DNA of 58,532 nucleotides from positions 1 to 58,532 of IMG/VR virus record IMGVR_UViG_3300028920_000078. One strand, 5' to 3'. The position numbers were made by a program, and so were the translations under genes. The DNA is from a virus. Positions 5,098 through 33,824 of this stretch are shown here, piece after piece (position 1 is the stretch's first letter; every line of letters starts with the position of its first letter). Under the pieces are notes generated by a model, which saw only the letters and a list, made by a program, of their open reading frames with translations, was not told the DNA's origin and ran no database searches.

Positions 5098-5550
5098 CTA
5101 ACTGTTACCTGCTCCTTTTGCTGTTCCTTGATGGGTATCAAGTAAGACAGTAACCAAATCACCTGCTGTTGCTGTTACGTCAGCGTCTTCCATGTATGTT
5201 CCAATAACCTTGGCACCATTTCCGGCACCACCATTGTCCATACAGTATCCCGCTGTATTTCCTACATGAACTCTTTCGTTCATGGCTGTATAGGTGACTG
5301 CTGTTGACTTAACTCGGACCATATGCCCACTACCTAGAAGATGTACACCTATCTTTTCTCCACTTCTAGTACTTCTTGCTGTTCCTTCATCATCTACAAC
5401 TGCATCATCTGCAATCGCTACGGCTGTATCACCAGATGCTGATGTTGGAGTCAAGTAAGCACCAGATGCCTTCAAGATAGTACCCTCATAGATAGTTTGA
5501 CCTGCATAAACAGGCCTATTTATTGGTACTGAGTTATCTACTGATGTCAT
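5098..5550 (-). CDS. Capsid decoration protein (DUF2190-like)
   Basis: 150 residues rich in Gly, Ala, Thr and Val. The pattern 'YAGQTIYEGTILK', an 'AVAIADDAV' stretch and a C-terminal AGDLVTVLL strand is typical of small beta-barrel capsid stabilisation proteins encoded between the prohead protease and the major capsid gene. It overlaps the protease gene's stop by 4 bases (ATGA) and is followed 2 bases later by the capsid gene, consistent with equimolar expression on the capsid surface. Confidence 0.7.
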   Translation of the reverse strand: MTSVDNSVPINRPVYAGQTIYEGTILKASGAYLTPTSASGDTAVAIADDAVVDDEGTARSTRSGEKIGVHLLGSGHMVRVKSTAVTYTAMNERVHVGNTAGYCMDNGGAGNGAKVIGTYMEDADVTATAGDLVTVLLDTHQGTAKGAGNS

Positions 5551-6716: not shown

Positions 6717-7315
6717 TTGCCTGTCTCCTTTCTTAATATATTTTGTAATTCTTTCCTCGTCTTACTTTTCATTTCTGCTGACATAGAAACGGGTTTTCCT
6801 TTCTCCAATCTAGCTATTGCATTCCTCAAATGTGGAATATCAACATTTCCTTCTAAATCTTTATAAGTCAAATGTCTTTTCGCTCTAGGAGTAGTTTTTC
6901 CTTCTTTATCTTTCTTTCCGCCTGTTTCTATCCAAGCAAATGCGCTATCTGGCAAATTATTAATATATGCTCTAGACCAGGTAACGTCATTTAATGAAGC
7001 AGAAGGCTTAGGAACTTGTCCTCTTCGTTTAATAGACTCCTTGTGAATCATGTCTTTCTGTTCATCAGTCAGCTCATTAAACATCTTCTTAAATAGTTCC
7101 TTCGCCAACTTGTCCCGAAACCTAACAGGTTCTGTGTACGCCTTCATACTCATAATCTCCGCCTTGGCAGATGCTGTAATTTTTTCTGGCATTGGCTTGG
7201 TGTCATCTAGCTTATATTTGTTGAGCCAACTAAAATAGTAAGAATCGCCTTTCTCTTTACCATATCTACGAATAAAAGAATCATATATTTTTTGGAAATC
7301 TTTATGTTTTGGCAT
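6713..7315 (-). CDS. Head morphogenesis-associated protein
   Basis: About 200 residues. The C-terminal half holds RHLTYKDLEGNVDIPHLRNA, a module I recall from phage head proteins near prohead proteases; the N-terminal half has a YYFSWLNKYKLDDTKP stretch. The ATG at 7315 is preferred because an archaeal TATA-like element (7345-7360) lies about 40 bases upstream and would give a near-leaderless mRNA; an in-frame TTG at 7333 is an alternative. It overlaps the protease gene by 4 bases. Function unknown, probably in head assembly. Confidence 0.6.
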   Translation of the reverse strand: MPKHKDFQKIYDSFIRRYGKEKGDSYYFSWLNKYKLDDTKPMPEKITASAKAEIMSMKAYTEPVRFRDKLAKELFKKMFNELTDEQKDMIHKESIKRRGQVPKPSASLNDVTWSRAYINNLPDSAFAWIETGGKKDKEGKTTPRAKRHLTYKDLEGNVDIPHLRNAIARLEKGKPVSMSAEMKSKTRKELQNILRKETGK

Positions 7316-7405: not shown

Positions 7406-7600
7406 TTATTTTTCCTTTAACACAACAAATTTCTCTCCGCCACGTACTCGAACACACATTTTATTTCTAAGCTTTACCAAACTTATGCTTGCAGAATATT
7501 CTGCCTCTTTATCTATCAACTTAGAATATTCGTGAGGTAGGACCACGGCTAATCTCCCATTAGAAACTCTTGTCAACTTTCCATAAATACAAACCTTCAT
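7406..7600 (-). CDS. Small hypothetical protein
   Basis: 64 residues, basic, predicted as a small beta barrel with a repeated V-x-L/V-x-V pattern. It overlaps the stop of the gp10-like gene (ATGA at 7597-7600) and is the last gene before the promoter gap. No family recognised; SpoVT/AbrB-like or head-tail accessory proteins of this size are possible. Confidence 0.45.
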   Translation of the reverse strand: MKVCIYGKLTRVSNGRLAVVLPHEYSKLIDKEAEYSASISLVKLRNKMCVRVRGGEKFVVLKEK

Positions 7601-8052
7601 AAGAACATTCTCCCGGCCACCTTTCCCATGTATTTATTTACCTGTATGGCACCATACTCCACAAAGAACTTACCTCTTACAGGAGGATGTTTAACCTTTT
7701 TAAAGTATGCCACTCTATCCAATTTATCCCAATGAAATCTCATAGCCTTTGTATTTTTTGGTTGTATGGTATAATAATGTCTTATTCCTCTATTCACATA
7801 AGCCGCATATTCTAAATCAGAACCTACTTGCAATAAAAGATTATCTGCAGATGTAATTAGATTGTATACTCCATTAGCACTAGGATTTCCAATACTATCC
7901 CACAACTTTCCTCTAGGAATCTCTCTTCTCATGGAATCTATCGCTACATCACCAATCTCCATCATTAATTTGACTTTATTCAGCTTTACATTTCCTTTTA
8001 TTCTGTCAATCAAATTCATCCATGGTGTTAAATCTAATCTTAAATTTACCAT
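7597..8052 (-). CDS. HK97 gp10-like head-tail/tail completion protein
   Basis: 151 residues with the usual features of the HK97-gp10 family: an N-terminal helix, a central 'RREIPRGKLWDSIG' region, 'DLEYAAYVNRG' (typical Y-A-x-Y-V-x-x-G), and a C-terminal FF-x-x-x-x-I helix. Members cap the tail or join it to the head. It follows the portal gene closely, whereas the other connector genes are at 56.97-57.85 kb. Confidence 0.7.
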   Translation of the reverse strand: MVNLRLDLTPWMNLIDRIKGNVKLNKVKLMMEIGDVAIDSMRREIPRGKLWDSIGNPSANGVYNLITSADNLLLQVGSDLEYAAYVNRGIRHYYTIQPKNTKAMRFHWDKLDRVAYFKKVKHPPVRGKFFVEYGAIQVNKYMGKVAGRMFL

Positions 8053-14718: not shown

Positions 14719-14733
14719 GAGTATTTAAAAAGT
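14719..14733 (-). promoter_or_regulatory. TATA-like promoter of the leftward block
   Basis: The minus strand reads ACTTTTTAAATACTC, nearly the same as CTTTTTAAATACTG before the plus-strand gene at 29193. Expected transcription start is near 14700, about 36 bases before the first leftward gene. Confidence 0.6.
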
Positions 14734-14751
14734 TTTGCGTGGGTGAATAAT

Positions 14752-15098
14752 ATGGATAGTGTGAATATGGATTTGAAAATTGACATATTGAAAATCATGT
14801 ACCTGCCCATTATACACAGCGAGGGTGCGACGATTTAAAACGGCTGAATTCGGTTATTTACTGGCAAGTAGTAAAAGAAACATTGGAAAAAGGTGCATTG
14901 GAAAACGGGGGTATGGGTATTGGAAAAAAGAAAAACGAGAAAAAAGAAAAACGAGAAAAAAGGAGCTTTGGAAAAGGAGCTTTGGAAAAAGAAGCTTTGG
15001 AAAAAGAGGACATGGGCGCATTGGAATTGTTACTATATAGTACTAACACAAATATTATTTGGAATTGTTTGGAATTGTTTGAAATTGTTACTATATAG
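14752..15098 (+). pseudogene. Frameshifted small winged-helix regulator with repeat expansion
   Basis: The ATG at 14752 opens a 28-codon frame (MDLKIDILKIMYLPIIHSEG) that stops at 14838. The overlapping +2 frame continues as DDLKRLNSVIYWQVVKETLEK, so both pieces together read like a winged-helix domain broken by one indel near 14830. The rest is low-complexity Lys/Glu/Gly sequence from 15-base tandem repeats (14962-15009). It may be a decayed gene, a programmed frameshift or a sequencing error. Confidence 0.35.
14962..15009 (+). repeat. Tandem 15-base repeat, about three copies
   Basis: Copies of GGAGCTTTGGAAAAA (last one GAAGCTTTGGAAAAA, first one base shorter) follow each other. Just upstream two AAAAACGAGAAAAA-type units are repeated as well. 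The array lies at the 3' end of the broken winged-helix frame. Confidence 0.7.
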
Positions 15099-15107
15099 TA
15101 CTAATAC
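15024..15107. repeat. Two direct copies of a palindrome-centred operator-like repeat
   Basis: GAATTGTTACTATATAGTAC with following TAACAC (15024) and GAAATTGTTACTATATAGTA with following CTAATAC (15082) are near-identical about 58 bases apart. Each is centred on the perfect palindrome TACTATATAGTA (15031-15042 and 15089-15100). This is the usual look of tandem operators. Confidence 0.6.
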
Positions 15108-15202
15108 AAGAAACATAAGTTAATACTACGAAAAACGCAAATACAAACACAAATACACGACACACGCAAGAAATACACTATTTTTGACAAGATTTTTTGT
15201 TG

Positions 15203-15220
15203 TTAGTATATTTATACTAA
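15203..15220. promoter_or_regulatory. Inverted repeat TTAGTATA-TT-TATACTAA
   Basis: Eight-base arms TTAGTATA and TATACTAA around TT. It shares the TAGTA/TACTA half-site with the palindromes at 15031, 15089 and 15587, so the set may be recognised by one dimeric regulator. Confidence 0.5.
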
Positions 15221-15318
15221 TTTTAAAAGAATGCGCTTAAAACGTAAAATATGCGGTCGACAGAATTGCTTATAGTTACTACTATTTAGTAAAAAAAAAA
15301 GAAATAGTTTTGCGCTGT

Positions 15319-15347
15319 ATATTGTTACTACTTTTTAGTAGCAATAT
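15319..15347 (-). terminator. Stem-loop overlapping the stop codon of the minus-strand regulator
   Basis: Arms ATATTGTTACTA (15319-15330) and TAGTAGCAATAT (15336-15347) pair with one mismatch around a T-rich spacer. It covers the stop codon (15328-15330) of the minus-strand gene and may end its transcript, or be another copy of the half-site family. Confidence 0.4.
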
Positions 15348-15561
15348 AATAATTTTTTATGTTAGTACTGCGCAGTAGTTTAAGCTTATGCATACGCTTT
15401 ATCGAGTTATATGCTTGATTATAGTTGTTAAAAAACAACTGTTTTAATATATTTGTTGTAATATACATTTTCCAGTTGCTTAAGTATTTGTTACATATAA
15501 GTTGTAAATACTCGTCGCGCTTACCTGTATATTGCATATATGCTGTATTAACACTAAACAC
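15328..15561 (-). CDS. Small winged-helix regulator encoded inside the hub
   Basis: 77 residues from GTG at 15561. Support for a real gene: a strong AAAGGAGG ribosome site 8 bases upstream and a sensible protein, helix-turn-helix plus wing ending KLKLLRSTNIKNYYIATKK. A perfect 16-base palindrome (15587-15602) sits just upstream where a repressor could control its own promoter. It runs opposite to the rightward block. Alternatives are a phase-overlapping start at GTG 15570 or no gene at all. Confidence 0.5.
   Translation of the reverse strand: MFSVNTAYMQYTGKRDEYLQLICNKYLSNWKMYITTNILKQLFFNNYNQAYNSIKRMHKLKLLRSTNIKNYYIATKK
15366..15377. promoter_or_regulatory. Palindrome TACTGCGCAGTA
   Basis: Perfect 12-base palindrome with the TACT/AGTA arms of the other hub palindromes. 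It lies inside the coding region of the minus-strand regulator. Confidence 0.4.
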
Positions 15562-15586
15562 ACAAAACACCTCCTTTTTTGTTATA

Positions 15587-15602
15587 CATAGTATATACTA
15601 TG
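15587..15602. promoter_or_regulatory. Palindrome CATAGTATATACTATG, likely operator
   Basis: Perfect 16-base palindrome immediately upstream of the minus-strand regulator's ribosome site. The left 12 bases recur at 15821-15832. Confidence 0.5.
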
Positions 15603-15854
15603 CATAATCATACATATAAGCTTTAAACAGCGCAAAATCACGCTTTCCTCTTGCTTCTTGTATAGTCAAATATACACATTTTAAATCACATATTACATAA
15701 TATACATTCAAATATAACCATTGCATTGTGTAACTACTCCTCAGTAATCACACACAAGCAAACATTTATATATAACCGTACGTTTTTGCTCAAAACCGAT
15801 AGCAGTTAGCTTATTGCTTACATAGTATATACAGTAAACAGCATTACAGCAATA

Positions 15855-15871
15855 GTGCAGTACTACTGCAC
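15855..15871. promoter_or_regulatory. Inverted repeat GTGCAGTACTACTGCAC
   Basis: Two perfect 8-base arms (GTGCAGTA and TACTGCAC) around one C. It lies in non-coding sequence between the divergent blocks and again contains AGTA/TACT half-sites. Confidence 0.5.
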
Positions 15872-16316
15872 AAGCATAAGCTTGTAGTAAAACAGCACAA
15901 AACAGCGCATTTTTTGCGCAAACACAGCATTAAACTGTTTAACTTGCTTACATGAGCATTTTATGCTACTTGCTTATAGTAACAATGTCCTAAGCACATT
16001 AAGTGCGTAAGCAAAAACAACAGCTAACTAAACATTAGCATAGTAACGTCTAGCAATTAAAATTAAAATTGCGCATTGTATTTATTTACCAGTAGTAACA
16101 ATAAGCTAAATCTTTTTTACTGCGTAAAGTAATTAAAGTGTTACTTATGTGTAACAAAATCATAAAATATCACTCATATAACGCAATTACTCGCAAAATT
16201 ACAACTAAACGTCTATGTATGTGCGAGTACCTGCAATTAATTAGCAAACCGCGTAAATCAACAGTATTAAGCGAGTTTGTTTAATACTTTTTTTATTATT
16301 TAGTAGTAAAAAAGAA

Positions 16317-16341
16317 GCTAAAATTAGTTTACTGCTCAAAT
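16317..16341 (+). promoter_or_regulatory. Leader repeat upstream of the first rightward gene
   Basis: AGCTAAAATTAGTTTACTGC followed by TCAAA precedes the GGGAGG ribosome site of the gene at 16358. The same 20 bases recur at 16686-16705 before the next gene. Together they look like a shared 5' leader or regulator site. Confidence 0.5.
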
Positions 16342-17141: not shown

Positions 17142-17450
17142 ATGCCAATATCAGAGAAAGAATTTGCGGAACTCAAAGGAGCTCCGTCAAGAGTCGGGGG
17201 TGTCAATCCAAACTCAATGGCACAGAGGATATTAAAAATCCTTCCTGCCAAGGGCGGAATGACAGCGGAAGAAGTAATTTCCGAAGTCAGGGAAGACGGC
17301 GACGACGAAAAGAAACTGAAGCAGGCGCTTGACGCCCACACCTACGACAAAGTAAAAAACGCAAAGGGTGAAAGAACCACGAAAGCAGTTAAGAAGTACA
17401 ACGGCGAAGGAATTGCTTTCTACAAGAAAAATCCCGAGTATTTCAATTGA
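17142..17450 (+). CDS. Winged-helix-type protein, paralog A
   Basis: About 102 residues from the ATG at 17142, which has AAAGGAGGTG 7 bases upstream (an in-frame start at 17112 lacks one). It begins MPISEKEFAEL and shares its layout with the gene at 22706: N/DPNS..QR..., LP..GG.TA.EVI, a D.KK.K.AL helix, VKKY and a terminal Y-K-x-NPEY. The middle (residues ~30-90) looks like a winged helix. Codon use is GC-richer than neighbours and like that of the capsid gene, suggesting abundance. A DNA-coating or regulatory role is possible; the family is not recognised. Confidence 0.6.
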   Translation: MPISEKEFAELKGAPSRVGGVNPNSMAQRILKILPAKGGMTAEEVISEVREDGDDEKKLKQALDAHTYDKVKNAKGERTTKAVKKYNGEGIAFYKKNPEYFN

Positions 17451-17672: not shown

Positions 17673-17774
17673 ATTACAATAGAAGATTTGAAATTCTGGA
17701 ACAAGGTTTTTGACAGGGCGTACACATTAGACCAGGTATATGAAATGAGGGCATGGCAACAGTATGCCTATTAA
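17673..17774 (+). CDS. Tiny ORF with possible AUU start
   Basis: An AAGGAGGTG site lies 6-7 bases before ATT at 17673, which opens a 33-codon frame (ITIEDLKFWNKVFDRAYTLD...). No ATG, GTG or TTG sits at the right distance except a GTG inside the ribosome site itself. Coding is suggested by a helical, non-random protein, but remains weak. Confidence 0.35.
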   Translation: MTIEDLKFWNKVFDRAYTLDQVYEMRAWQQYAY

Positions 17775-17860
17775 TTATGTCCTGTCAAGGAGGTAGGAAG
17801 TTCTGCTCCAATAAATTATGTAAGTGGAATGTTCAAGGAGTATGCTTCAAGTAAATCCTG

Positions 17861-18030
17861 CAATCAACGACGGTGATTTAGGAAACATTAGGTGAAGGGG
17901 TACAGCGCCAGTCTAGCCGAGGCCCGTTCCACCGACTATCTAATGTCATTGAATGGCATTAGACGTCAGGAATAAGCCTAATGTGGTTTGCAGTATTAAC
18001 CTTAAACTGCCGTGCACCGTCGTTGGCAGA
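17861..18030 (+). ncRNA. Candidate structured RNA 1 (multi-helix)
   Basis: A GC-rich stretch without a gene in AT-rich surroundings. CAACGACGGTG (17865-17875) pairs perfectly with CACCGTCGTTG (18015-18025), closing the whole element. Inside, ACATTAGG (17885-17892) pairs with CCTAATGT (17977-17984); CTAATGTCA/TGGCATTAG (17940-17962) forms a hairpin with one G-T pair; and GCAGT/ACTGC (17990-18010) forms another. This is a four-helix design, not a tRNA, and I recognise no known class. It ends a few bases before the ribosome site of the gene at 18043, so a cis-acting leader is the alternative to an independent RNA. Confidence 0.55.
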
Positions 18031-18042
18031 CGGAGGTGAATT

Positions 18043-18258
18043 ATGGAAGAGAAAATTAACATTCTCCATAAATTTGATGAAGCCAAGAAAAGACAACTTA
18101 TTAAATTCTTGGCTAAAGTAGATAATGCGATTAATTATGTATGTGAATCTATGGAGATGTTGAATCAAGATAATCCGAAGCAGGAAAGAATCTGCAACAG
18201 ATTAAGAGCGGTACACATTCAATTAAATTCTATCTATAAAGACATACAGGAGGATTAA
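18043..18258 (+). CDS. Small helical hypothetical protein
   Basis: 71 residues, almost entirely helical with Lys/Glu/Leu patterning, and a GACGGAGGTGAATT ribosome site. The closing stem of the candidate RNA ends 17 bases upstream of the start. No family recognised. Confidence 0.5.
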   Translation: MEEKINILHKFDEAKKRQLIKFLAKVDNAINYVCESMEMLNQDNPKQERICNRLRAVHIQLNSIYKDIQED

Positions 18259-22411: not shown

Positions 22412-22426
22412 CTTTTTAAAGTATAC
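22412..22426 (+). promoter_or_regulatory. TATA-like promoter
   Basis: CTTTTTAAAGTATAC in the 119-base gap after 22349. Transcription would start near 22440, shortly before the dual-start gene at 22469. Confidence 0.55.
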
Positions 22427-22468
22427 TACTAACTATAAGCATCCGAGAAGTATTATGCCAGAAAGGAG

Positions 22469-23047
22469 ATGGAAAAGTTGTTAAGGACTATGGAAGAATG
22501 CGAGAAAATGCCGGAGTGGCAACATAGATGGAAATCTGTTATTATAAAAGATATGTATCCTCAAGAAGAAAGAGAAAAATGTTTAGAATGTAAACAGACA
22601 TTCGGTAGTAGGGTACCACATTTCCCATGCGATTGGGTTCATGGTGATGTAGCGGCATCTAGTGATGCAACTACGTCCAATAAAATAAAAGGAGAGGTGA
22701 ATGAAATGCCAATATCAGAAAAAGAATTCCAGGACCTCGCAGGAAAGCCCAAGGGCGGTTTTGGGGCAGACCCCAACAGCCTATCACAGAGGACTTTCCG
22801 AGCCTTGCCAACCGAAGGTGGCGTAACAGCAGACGAAGTAATAGAGACAGTAGGAGAAGACGCAAAGAAAGTGAAGAACGCTCTGAATGCTCTCTGTTAT
22901 GACGGAAAGATAAAGAAGGTCGTGAAGAAATACGATGAGAACGGAGAGGCCTACTACAAGCAGAATCCGGAATACGTCCAGAAGCAGGAAGGCAGCGGTG
23001 CTGAGGAAGAGACTGCATCCGAAGAGGATGTTGATGCTGAGGAATAA
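22469..23047 (+). CDS. Winged-helix-type protein, paralog B, with optional Cys-rich N-terminal extension
   Basis: Open frame of 192 residues. Residues 1-79 form an extension with CLEC and a later His/Cys (possible zinc site). Met80 (ATG 22706) has its own AAAGGAGAGGTG site, and from there MPISEKEFQDL starts a protein matching paralog A (17142) over its whole length, with the same N/DPNS, LP..GG.TA.EVI and NPEY landmarks, plus an acidic tail. So either a fusion or two products from one frame. The part after 22706 is GC-richer, as in paralog A. The first ATG follows GGAG too closely; TTG at 22478 is an alternative. Confidence 0.6.
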   Translation: MEKLLRTMEECEKMPEWQHRWKSVIIKDMYPQEEREKCLECKQTFGSRVPHFPCDWVHGDVAASSDATTSNKIKGEVNEMPISEKEFQDLAGKPKGGFGADPNSLSQRTFRALPTEGGVTADEVIETVGEDAKKVKNALNALCYDGKIKKVVKKYDENGEAYYKQNPEYVQKQEGSGAEEETASEEDVDAEE

Positions 23048-23059
23048 GTCCTCAGAAAC

Positions 23060-23262
23060 CTAACAGGTTCGGCGGGCCTTGTAAGCCCCCGAACTCATAC
23101 CCACGAGAATACACAATCCCCGGTTAGTGGTGGCTCGAAACCCCACTAACCCATTGGCTTCCGAAGTCCGGAATACTTGAACCACCAAGTTGCGTGAGAA
23201 GCCGAATAGGGAACGGAATGTGGTCGACTGCTGGTAACAGCAACTTGTTCTATTCCCATAAC
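23060..23262 (+). ncRNA. Candidate structured RNA 2 (five helices)
   Basis: GC-rich stretch without a gene just after paralog B. Helices: GTTCGG-c-GGGC with GCCC-CCGAAC (23067-23094); GTTAGTGG (23123-23130) with CCACTAAC (23143-23150), extended by GG/CC past a bulged T; GGCTTC (23156-23161) with GAAGCC (23198-23203), enclosing ACTTG/CAAGT; GAATAG (23204-23209) with CTATTC (23250-23255), extended by AAC/GTT; and TGCTG-GTAA-CAGCA (23229-23242), a GNRA tetraloop. No tRNA, RNase P or other class could be recognised by eye. A stable RNA processed from the paralog B mRNA or made separately is likely. Confidence 0.6.
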
Positions 23263-23556
23263 TATATGGAATGATGGATATGTTTTATAGAAAGGATAAG
23301 AAAAGTTCGTTTGTTGAACAATACTGGAGTTTTTTAAATAGGGTATATTATAAGCAACAACACCAGTCCTGTTCAACAGGTTCTCCATTCATGCTTCATA
23401 TTTTAAAGAAAGGCATGATTTCAGCTCGAAAAAATTTAAACATACAAATACACACAAAACTTAATACCGTTTCAAAATCACGCCAAATAATGCAAATTCC
23501 AACGGAAGAAAAATCGCAGTCAAACGCATTTAACAACATGAGGAAGGAGATACAAA
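23263..23556 (+). other. Spacer with promoter and palindrome; the ORF here is probably spurious
   Basis: A 97-codon open frame (23271-23564) covers this stretch but lacks a ribosome site and contains a TATA-like element and an operator-like palindrome, so I treat it as non-coding. Nothing else was seen apart from these two sites. Confidence 0.45.
23329..23380 (+). promoter_or_regulatory. TATA-like promoter with palindrome at the start site
   Basis: GTTTTTTAAATAGGG (23329-23343) followed 25 bases later by CCTGTT-C-AACAGG (23368-23380). The palindrome lies where transcription would start, a good place for a repressor. The transcript would cover the small genes from 23557 on. Confidence 0.45.
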
Positions 23557-23757
23557 ATGGCTAATGCAGGAGCTGTTGCCGCTGTTGCTGGTGGCACCCT
23601 CTTAATACAAAGAGGACATGAGATTAATGAAAGTGTAAGGAAAGTTACTATTGATGAAGAAATGCCATTAATTTTCTTATTGATTCTGTTGTTTATAGGG
23701 ATTATGATTGTCTTAATTGCAAAACTGATATTATCAAGAAAAAAGGAGGCGGTCTGA
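23557..23757 (+). CDS. Small membrane protein
   Basis: 66 residues with a Gly/Ala-rich N-terminus and one long hydrophobic helix (about 36-58) before a basic end. AGGAAGGAG site 7 bases upstream. The predicted tail-anchored shape would suit a membrane-disturbing or adaptor role; no family known. Confidence 0.5.
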   Translation: MANAGAVAAVAGGTLLIQRGHEINESVRKVTIDEEMPLIFLLILLFIGIMIVLIAKLILSRKKEAV

Positions 23758-25868: not shown

Positions 25869-26102
25869 ATGAAATGTTATTTTTGTGATAAAGAAGCCTG
25901 TTGCAAGGTAGGAAACAGTAAAGGAAATATACTCAGAGCCCTATTAGGTGGAAAGTGTTGGGAGAAGACAGAATGGTATCTTTGTAATAGGTGTCACGAA
26001 ATTTATAAAAGAATAAGATCCCGTACAAACAACTTTCATAAAATAGAAGAAGATTTGATGTTATTTAGAAATCAAGAATTAAGAAAACATAAGCGGATGT
26101 AG
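25869..26102 (+). CDS. Cys-rich zinc-binding protein overlapping the tRNA gene
   Basis: 77 residues with CYFCDKEACC near the N-terminus and CNRCH at about residue 39: a probable zinc finger with a helical basic tail. Its stop codon (26100-26102) lies within the first 10 bases of tRNA-Leu, so tRNA processing would cut this mRNA. Confidence 0.5.
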   Translation: MKCYFCDKEACCKVGNSKGNILRALLGGKCWEKTEWYLCNRCHEIYKRIRSRTNNFHKIEEDLMLFRNQELRKHKRM

Positions 26103-26214
26103 CCGACTGGGAAAGGCAACAGGCTTAGGCTGTGAAGGCGGCTAAAGGTTGAAGCTCAAGAACATGAGATACCTGTTCTTAGTGATATTGGAGGTTCAAT
26201 TCCTCCCTTCCGCA
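26093..26214 (+). tRNA. tRNA-Leu(UAG) with 41-base archaeal intron
   Basis: Acceptor GCGGATG (26093-26099) pairs with CTTCCGC (26207-26213; one T-T mismatch); U8/A9; D-stem GCC/GGC with GG in the loop; anticodon stem ACAGG (26119-26123) with CCTGT (26172-26176); loop CUUAGG then A gives anticodon UAG (26126-26128); 13-base class II variable region; T arm GGAGG-TTCAATT-CCTCC (26190-26206). The 41-base intron (26130-26170) sits after position 37. Its ends form a bulge-helix-bulge: CTTA pairs with TGAG, with 3-base bulges GGC and ATA, and cuts after the second base give exact exons. CCA is not encoded. Mature length 81. Confidence 0.88.
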
Positions 26215-33696: not shown

Positions 33697-33702
33697 AATC
33701 TC

Positions 33703-33797
33703 TAAGATTCCAACCATACAGACTTCGTAACAAAAAAAGCTGTTAATATACCCTATTTGAGGGTTGATGTAACGAAGAATGTAAGGTTGGAATCTTA
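33703..33797 (+). ncRNA. Long imperfect hairpin between rfcS and the next gene
   Basis: TAAGATTCCAACC (33703-33715) pairs perfectly with GGTTGGAATCTTA (33785-33797). Inside, CTTCGTAAC (33723-33731) pairs with GTAACGAAG (33769-33777) with one mismatch, and ACCCT/AGGGT (33750-33764) forms the tip. It may be a stable RNA, an attenuator, or a DNA cruciform. Confidence 0.5.
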
Positions 33798-33824
33798 CGG
33801 GTTAAAAAATAAAGGAGAAAAAAT

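Follow-up and report, generated by a model that had tools for sequence, protein, structure and literature searches.

The region around 23 kb of this viral genome probably gives rise to a functional RNA, as judged from a well-defined predicted fold of positions 23062-23260, a clear preference for the plus strand and the presence of two twin hairpins. Our tentative interpretation, held with some reserve, is that this is a genuine plus-strand structured RNA that forms the 3' part of the transcript of a winged-helix gene (paralog B) and would bind protein via the twin hairpins P1 and P2, acting as a regulator or decoy. The RNA is of the broad known kind of structured non-coding RNAs but has no family under which it could be filed, and claiming a new class would be premature.

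The window analysed here is the entire record of an uncultivated virus, 58.5 kb long. It encodes PolB, a clamp-loader-like AAA protein, GTP cyclohydrolase I, QueC, a PTPS (QueD-like) and a radical-SAM (QueE-like) protein, an ATP-dependent DNA ligase and a SNF2 helicase. Because this gene set and the similarity of PolB to that of haloarchaeal tailed viruses point in this direction, the virus appears to be an archaeal tailed virus. When IMG/VR was scanned with the proteins of the window (winged-helix B, ligase, helicase, MCP, TGT-like protein, terminase, PolB and primase), this identified three syntenic relatives (G001, G002 and G011), with PolB and terminase 39-42% and 44-47% identical to those of the window, as well as more distant PolB-bearing relatives; scans of genome contigs gave no match. 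An AT-rich, repeat-rich and gene-poor region between divergent gene blocks (14720-16330) is by eye the best candidate for a replication origin.

The RNA and its surroundings comprise the following features:

22413-22441, plus strand: TATA-like and initiator-like module (TTTTTAAA...ATAAGCA), recognised by pattern, likely promoter of the winged-helix unit
22478-23047, plus strand: winged-helix paralog B open reading frame; the winged-helix part starts at 22706 and has its own ribosome-binding site
23037-23055, plus strand: 7-bp hairpin CUGAGGA-AUAAG-UCCUCAG over the winged-helix stop codon, read from the sequence and formed in the fold of 23030-23270
23066-23095, plus strand: P1, pair probabilities 0.96-1.0 (terminal pair 0.77)
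23096-23121, plus strand: C/A-rich linker, unpaired in the minimum free energy (MFE) and centroid folds
23122-23151, plus strand: P2, predicted twin of P1
23154-23205, plus strand: P3, compound hairpin whose internal loops are asymmetric, with an apical ACUUG/CAAGU helix, pair probabilities 0.73-0.99
23209-23257, plus strand: P4, long irregular hairpin capped by a GUAA tetraloop at 23234-23237, pair probabilities 0.84-1.0
23312-23378, plus strand: P5, imperfect inverted repeat with 23-nt arms, fold of -19.6 kcal/mol
23331-23356, plus strand: second TATA-like and initiator-like module, recognised by pattern, likely promoter for the unit that follows (gene at 23557)

P1 to P4 are predicted to form four stacked domains, or five helices when P3 is taken as two stacked ones, with pair probabilities that are nearly all between 0.8 and 1.0 (minimum 0.73) and with 5 G-U pairs among 57. 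This bears out the first-pass annotation of the region, which had described five helices, among them two hairpins with bulges, and a GNRA tetraloop, the latter being the GUAA of P4. The MFE of -70.0 compares with -53.8 ± 4.45 in dinucleotide shuffles (z -3.64) and the ensemble diversity of 12.1 with 43.6; values as low occurred in 2 and 1 of 1000 shuffles, respectively, and the region is thus more stable and better defined than its shuffles, as a structured non-coding RNA should be. A z-score of about -3.6 is not unique in this genome, where 9 of 292 windows of 200 nt, some of them coding, reach -3.5 or less; more weight as evidence attaches to the twin hairpins and the narrowness of the ensemble than to the folding z-score. 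On the minus strand, the energy is slightly lower (-75.2) but the ensemble diversity rises to 46.4. The far better definition of the plus strand is expected of an RNA that is co-directional with the genes, and the structure is therefore most likely an RNA read along the direction of the surrounding genes. A kissing interaction between the P3 loop (ACCAC) and GUGGU of P4 is possible, yet expected by chance, and was not retained; kink-turn and H/ACA readings were sought by eye and were not convincing.

P1 (GGUUCGG-c-GGGC[CUUGUAA]GCCC-CCGAACU) and P2 (GGUUAGUGG-u-GG[CUCGAAA]CC-CCACUAACC) are structural twins: both have 11 bp, a single 1-nt bulge on the 5' side (C23073 and U23131, respectively) and a 7-nt loop of the form CUYGNAA. 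Scanning the window and the three relatives (243 kb, both strands) for hairpins of this grade, i.e., at least 10 bp, one 5' bulge, at least six G-C pairs and any 7-nt loop, returned only P1 and P2. When the region was shuffled 20,000 times, 105 shuffles contained one such hairpin and none contained two, although the resulting p-values, like those for the promoter pattern described below, are somewhat flattering and only indicative because the motifs were noticed before they were counted. With this proviso, the counts are an indication of selection that comes from the sequence itself and is independent of homologues.

That the region contains no gene, as had been noted, agrees with the presence of stop codons in all three of its plus frames and the lack of a credible protein frame. 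The sole sizeable frame (23146-23388, 80 amino acids) is antisense to a gene block that is entirely on the plus strand and has no Pfam match; neither an open frame with a ribosome-binding site nor a protein family match was found in the region. The RNA resembles the structured RNAs of Rfam (RNase P, tmRNA, group I/II introns, SRP, GOLLD-like phage RNAs) in being multi-helical, GC-rich, non-coding and equipped with a GNRA loop, but it reaches the gathering score of no covariance model of Rfam release 15; the best match scores 15.7 bits, where 65 would be required, and the best permissive matches (E ~1) look like chance. Neither Rfam nor ARAGORN with introns allowed detects a tRNA with a 7-bp acceptor and T-arm cloverleaf at 22.9-23.6 kb, whereas the latter does find the tRNA-Leu at 26093, and no tmRNA with a tRNA-like domain and a tag reading frame was found in the region. 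The earlier failure to match the RNA to RNase P, tmRNA, group I/II introns or tRNA is therefore upheld by the Rfam (RNase P and intron models included), tRNA and tmRNA searches, and neither a known class nor a conserved frame, both named beforehand as outcomes that would refute a new RNA, was encountered.

The search for homologues covered IMG/VR relatives, phages and plasmids, so that close relatives are visible only if present in IMG/VR. Within this scope, small-word BLAST gave at most short chance matches and no homologue in the three syntenic relatives, the more distant PolB records, phages or plasmids. A covariance model based on this one sequence recovered only the sequence itself across 545 kb and nothing in 11 whole records, and the sequence that follows winged-helix genes in the relatives differs from the RNA at 23 kb. 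Pairing of the loops and linkers with viral start regions was no better than that of shuffled sequence, which makes a simple antisense action on viral genes unlikely.

The position of the RNA relative to promoter-like modules suggests how it is produced. The pattern TTTTTAAAN{8,22}ATAAGCA has exactly two sites in the window, against 0.05 expected and no shuffle with two sites among 100, counts that are again only indicative. The TATA-like element and ATAAGCA are 11-14 bases apart in both modules, and the first module is located just ahead of the paralog B frame, while the second follows the RNA. Since the modules bracket gene and RNA, both seem to belong to one unit. The RNA would thus form the 3' end of the winged-helix unit and does not appear to be a gene with a promoter of its own. 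P5 overlaps the second module and may be an operator, a terminator or an additional RNA domain. The suggestion of a possible new viral non-coding RNA is partly supported: it agrees with the well-defined fold on one strand and the lack of an assignable family or protein frame, but the RNA seems to be part of the winged-helix unit. Similarly, the base composition had been described as unlike the neighbourhood, which is correct in comparison with the window (52% GC in the RNA region, 34% in the window) but not with the preceding winged-helix gene (49%). The GC-rich islet extends from about 22.6 to 23.28 kb and is wider than the RNA; because it takes in the winged-helix gene, the GC contrast is not private to the RNA.

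Paralog B is 51% identical to the paralog at 17142-17450, and at least nine related winged-helix genes, whose products start with M-x-I-x-x-E-E-F, are present in the four viruses. A profile of eight family members matches winged-helix domains of known structure, best that of Hop2 (E 9e-6), with a weaker match to BlaI/MecI repressors. The paralog B frame upstream of the winged-helix part (22478-22705) is free of stops and encodes a Cys/His-rich segment (CLEC...HFPCDWVH), which could reflect a fusion or two overlapping translation starts. ORF-free sequence of at least 250 nt follows seven of nine winged-helix genes versus 44 of 310 other genes (14%; p 5e-5), counts that rest on a crude gene caller and four viruses. 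As winged-helix genes usually adjoin ORF-free sequence, they show where similar RNAs could be sought, and part of the pattern may arise because these genes simply end transcription units. In the relatives, several winged-helix genes have strong hairpins no more than tens of bases downstream, and the sequences of these hairpins are unrelated. In G011, the two ends of the corresponding stretch match each other in a long closing stem (TGACCCAT/ATGGGTCA plus TTAATTAG/CTAATTAG), although the stretch as a whole folds at a z-score of only -1.4. These observations point to an arrangement that recurs rather than to a common RNA family.

In the proposed mechanism, the transcript would start near 22440 and end before about 23330. 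Beyond the hairpin at the stop codon, the RNA would fold into four independent domains, of which P1 and P2 would most likely serve as sites for two copies of a single protein. This may be the winged-helix protein of the virus or a protein of the host that binds or modifies RNA. The RNA could thereby act as a protein-binding regulator or decoy, whether it stays part of the mRNA or is processed from it. Transcription, processing and protein binding of the RNA are what we infer, and the twin hairpins provide a concrete binding hypothesis. An unlikely extension would be a new class of regulatory RNAs in tailed archaeal viruses, derived from the 3' ends of winged-helix transcripts, in which twin bulged hairpins would use their anticodon-like CUYGNAA loops to capture a protein, viral or from the host, that binds RNA or modifies tRNA.

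The main rival, which has to be taken seriously even if we consider it somewhat unlikely, is a purely cis-acting 3' untranslated region, in which the hairpin stack blocks 3' exonucleases and aids termination of an abundant winged-helix mRNA; there would be no function in trans and any stable fold would suffice. The lack of sequence conservation fits this explanation, as do the unrelated strong hairpins that closely follow several of the relatives' winged-helix genes and the tendency of these genes to end units. Such a stabiliser would, however, not need anything as elaborate as four domains with twin bulges and 7-nt loops, and paralog A is followed by just one short hairpin, with the next gene 50 nt away. 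Chance folding of a GC-rich, non-functional intergenic sequence is the least probable reading and unlikely: the 9 of 292 windows with comparable z-scores speak for it, but the dinucleotide-controlled energy and ensemble tests and the twin-hairpin test speak against it.

Less likely than the cis-acting region is also an element that works at the level of DNA (replication origin, cruciform, operator or packaging site), the palindromes of which would only resemble RNA hairpins. The adjoining inverted repeat at 23312-23378, in an ORF-free stretch beside the gene of a DNA-binding protein, would suit this improbable alternative, but fold definition is strongly strand-asymmetric and 5 of 57 pairs are G-U, where DNA palindromes would be symmetric; moreover, 23060-23260 lacks iterons and the divergent AT-rich, repeat-rich region at 14.7-16.3 kb is a better origin candidate. 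We rate as comparably improbable a decaying insertion, i.e., what is left of a mobile element or of a non-coding RNA of the host that was brought in with the GC-rich winged-helix gene. The GC-rich islet in an AT-rich genome and the absence of the RNA from the corresponding place in the relatives would be explained in this way, yet winged-helix genes are GC peaks in the related viruses too, so that composition does not mark an import, and the fold is intact and has no Rfam, phage or plasmid match.

P1 and P2 can be compared with known systems. In the coat-protein operator hairpins of RNA phages (MS2, PP7), one unpaired nucleotide is located on the 5' side a few base pairs below the loop. P1 and P2 likewise have one unpaired base on the 5' side, which is an analogy and not a membership; unlike the operators, they carry 7-nt loops instead of loops of 4-6 nt, occur as two in tandem and belong to a DNA virus, and their binding is hypothetical. 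Their loops are also similar to that of a tRNA anticodon arm in having 7 nt of the form C-U-N-N-N-A-A with U at the second place, but their stems are bulged and 11 bp long, and no acceptor or T-arm arrangement is present. GC-rich islands in AT-rich genomes have also been used for RNA-gene finding in the case of archaeal intergenic small RNAs (PMC3432209), which are cellular, whereas the RNA described here is located in a virus. A search of the open literature turned up no account of such a structured non-coding RNA from tailed archaeal viruses. If expressed, it would be a specific and testable structured non-coding RNA in such a virus, with a linked winged-helix protein family.

Several other structured stretches were observed in the window and its relatives. 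A second multi-branched, ORF-free stretch at 17865-18025 (plus strand; flanks 17770-18045) is closed by a perfect 11-bp helix (CAACGACGGTG/CACCGTCGTTG; z -3.3), extends to the ribosome-binding site of the gene that follows and has no similarity to the RNA at 23 kb. A string shared between the 17.8-18.0 kb and G011 stretches (CAUUAGGYGAARGG) was dropped because the helix partners differ. A long, near-perfect hairpin (33697-33805, plus strand; z -6.8) occupies the gap after the clamp-loader-like gene. Strong multi-helix, ORF-free stretches are also found on the minus strand of G001 (L004:10460-10800 and L004:13380-13560), with z-scores of -5.4 and of -2.3 to -3.1, and the former has no match in Rfam. 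The tRNA-Leu (UAG) of the window (26093-26214, plus strand) contains a 41-nt intron-like insert after the anticodon and is thus a viral intron-containing tRNA, which is missed by default ARAGORN and detected by Rfam and by ARAGORN with introns. In G002, a possible tRNA with a large insert (L026 ~5400-5550, minus strand) shows 9-bp ends (TTGGTGTGG/CCACACCAA) and a perfect T-arm (GGAAG-TTCGATT-CTTTC); it overlaps the 3' end of an ORF and is not called by Rfam or ARAGORN. The same L026 carries two similar intergenic mini-helices between small genes (~7150-7230 and 7590-7660, minus strand), each with a 6-bp outer stem around a 5-bp hairpin with a 7-nt loop.
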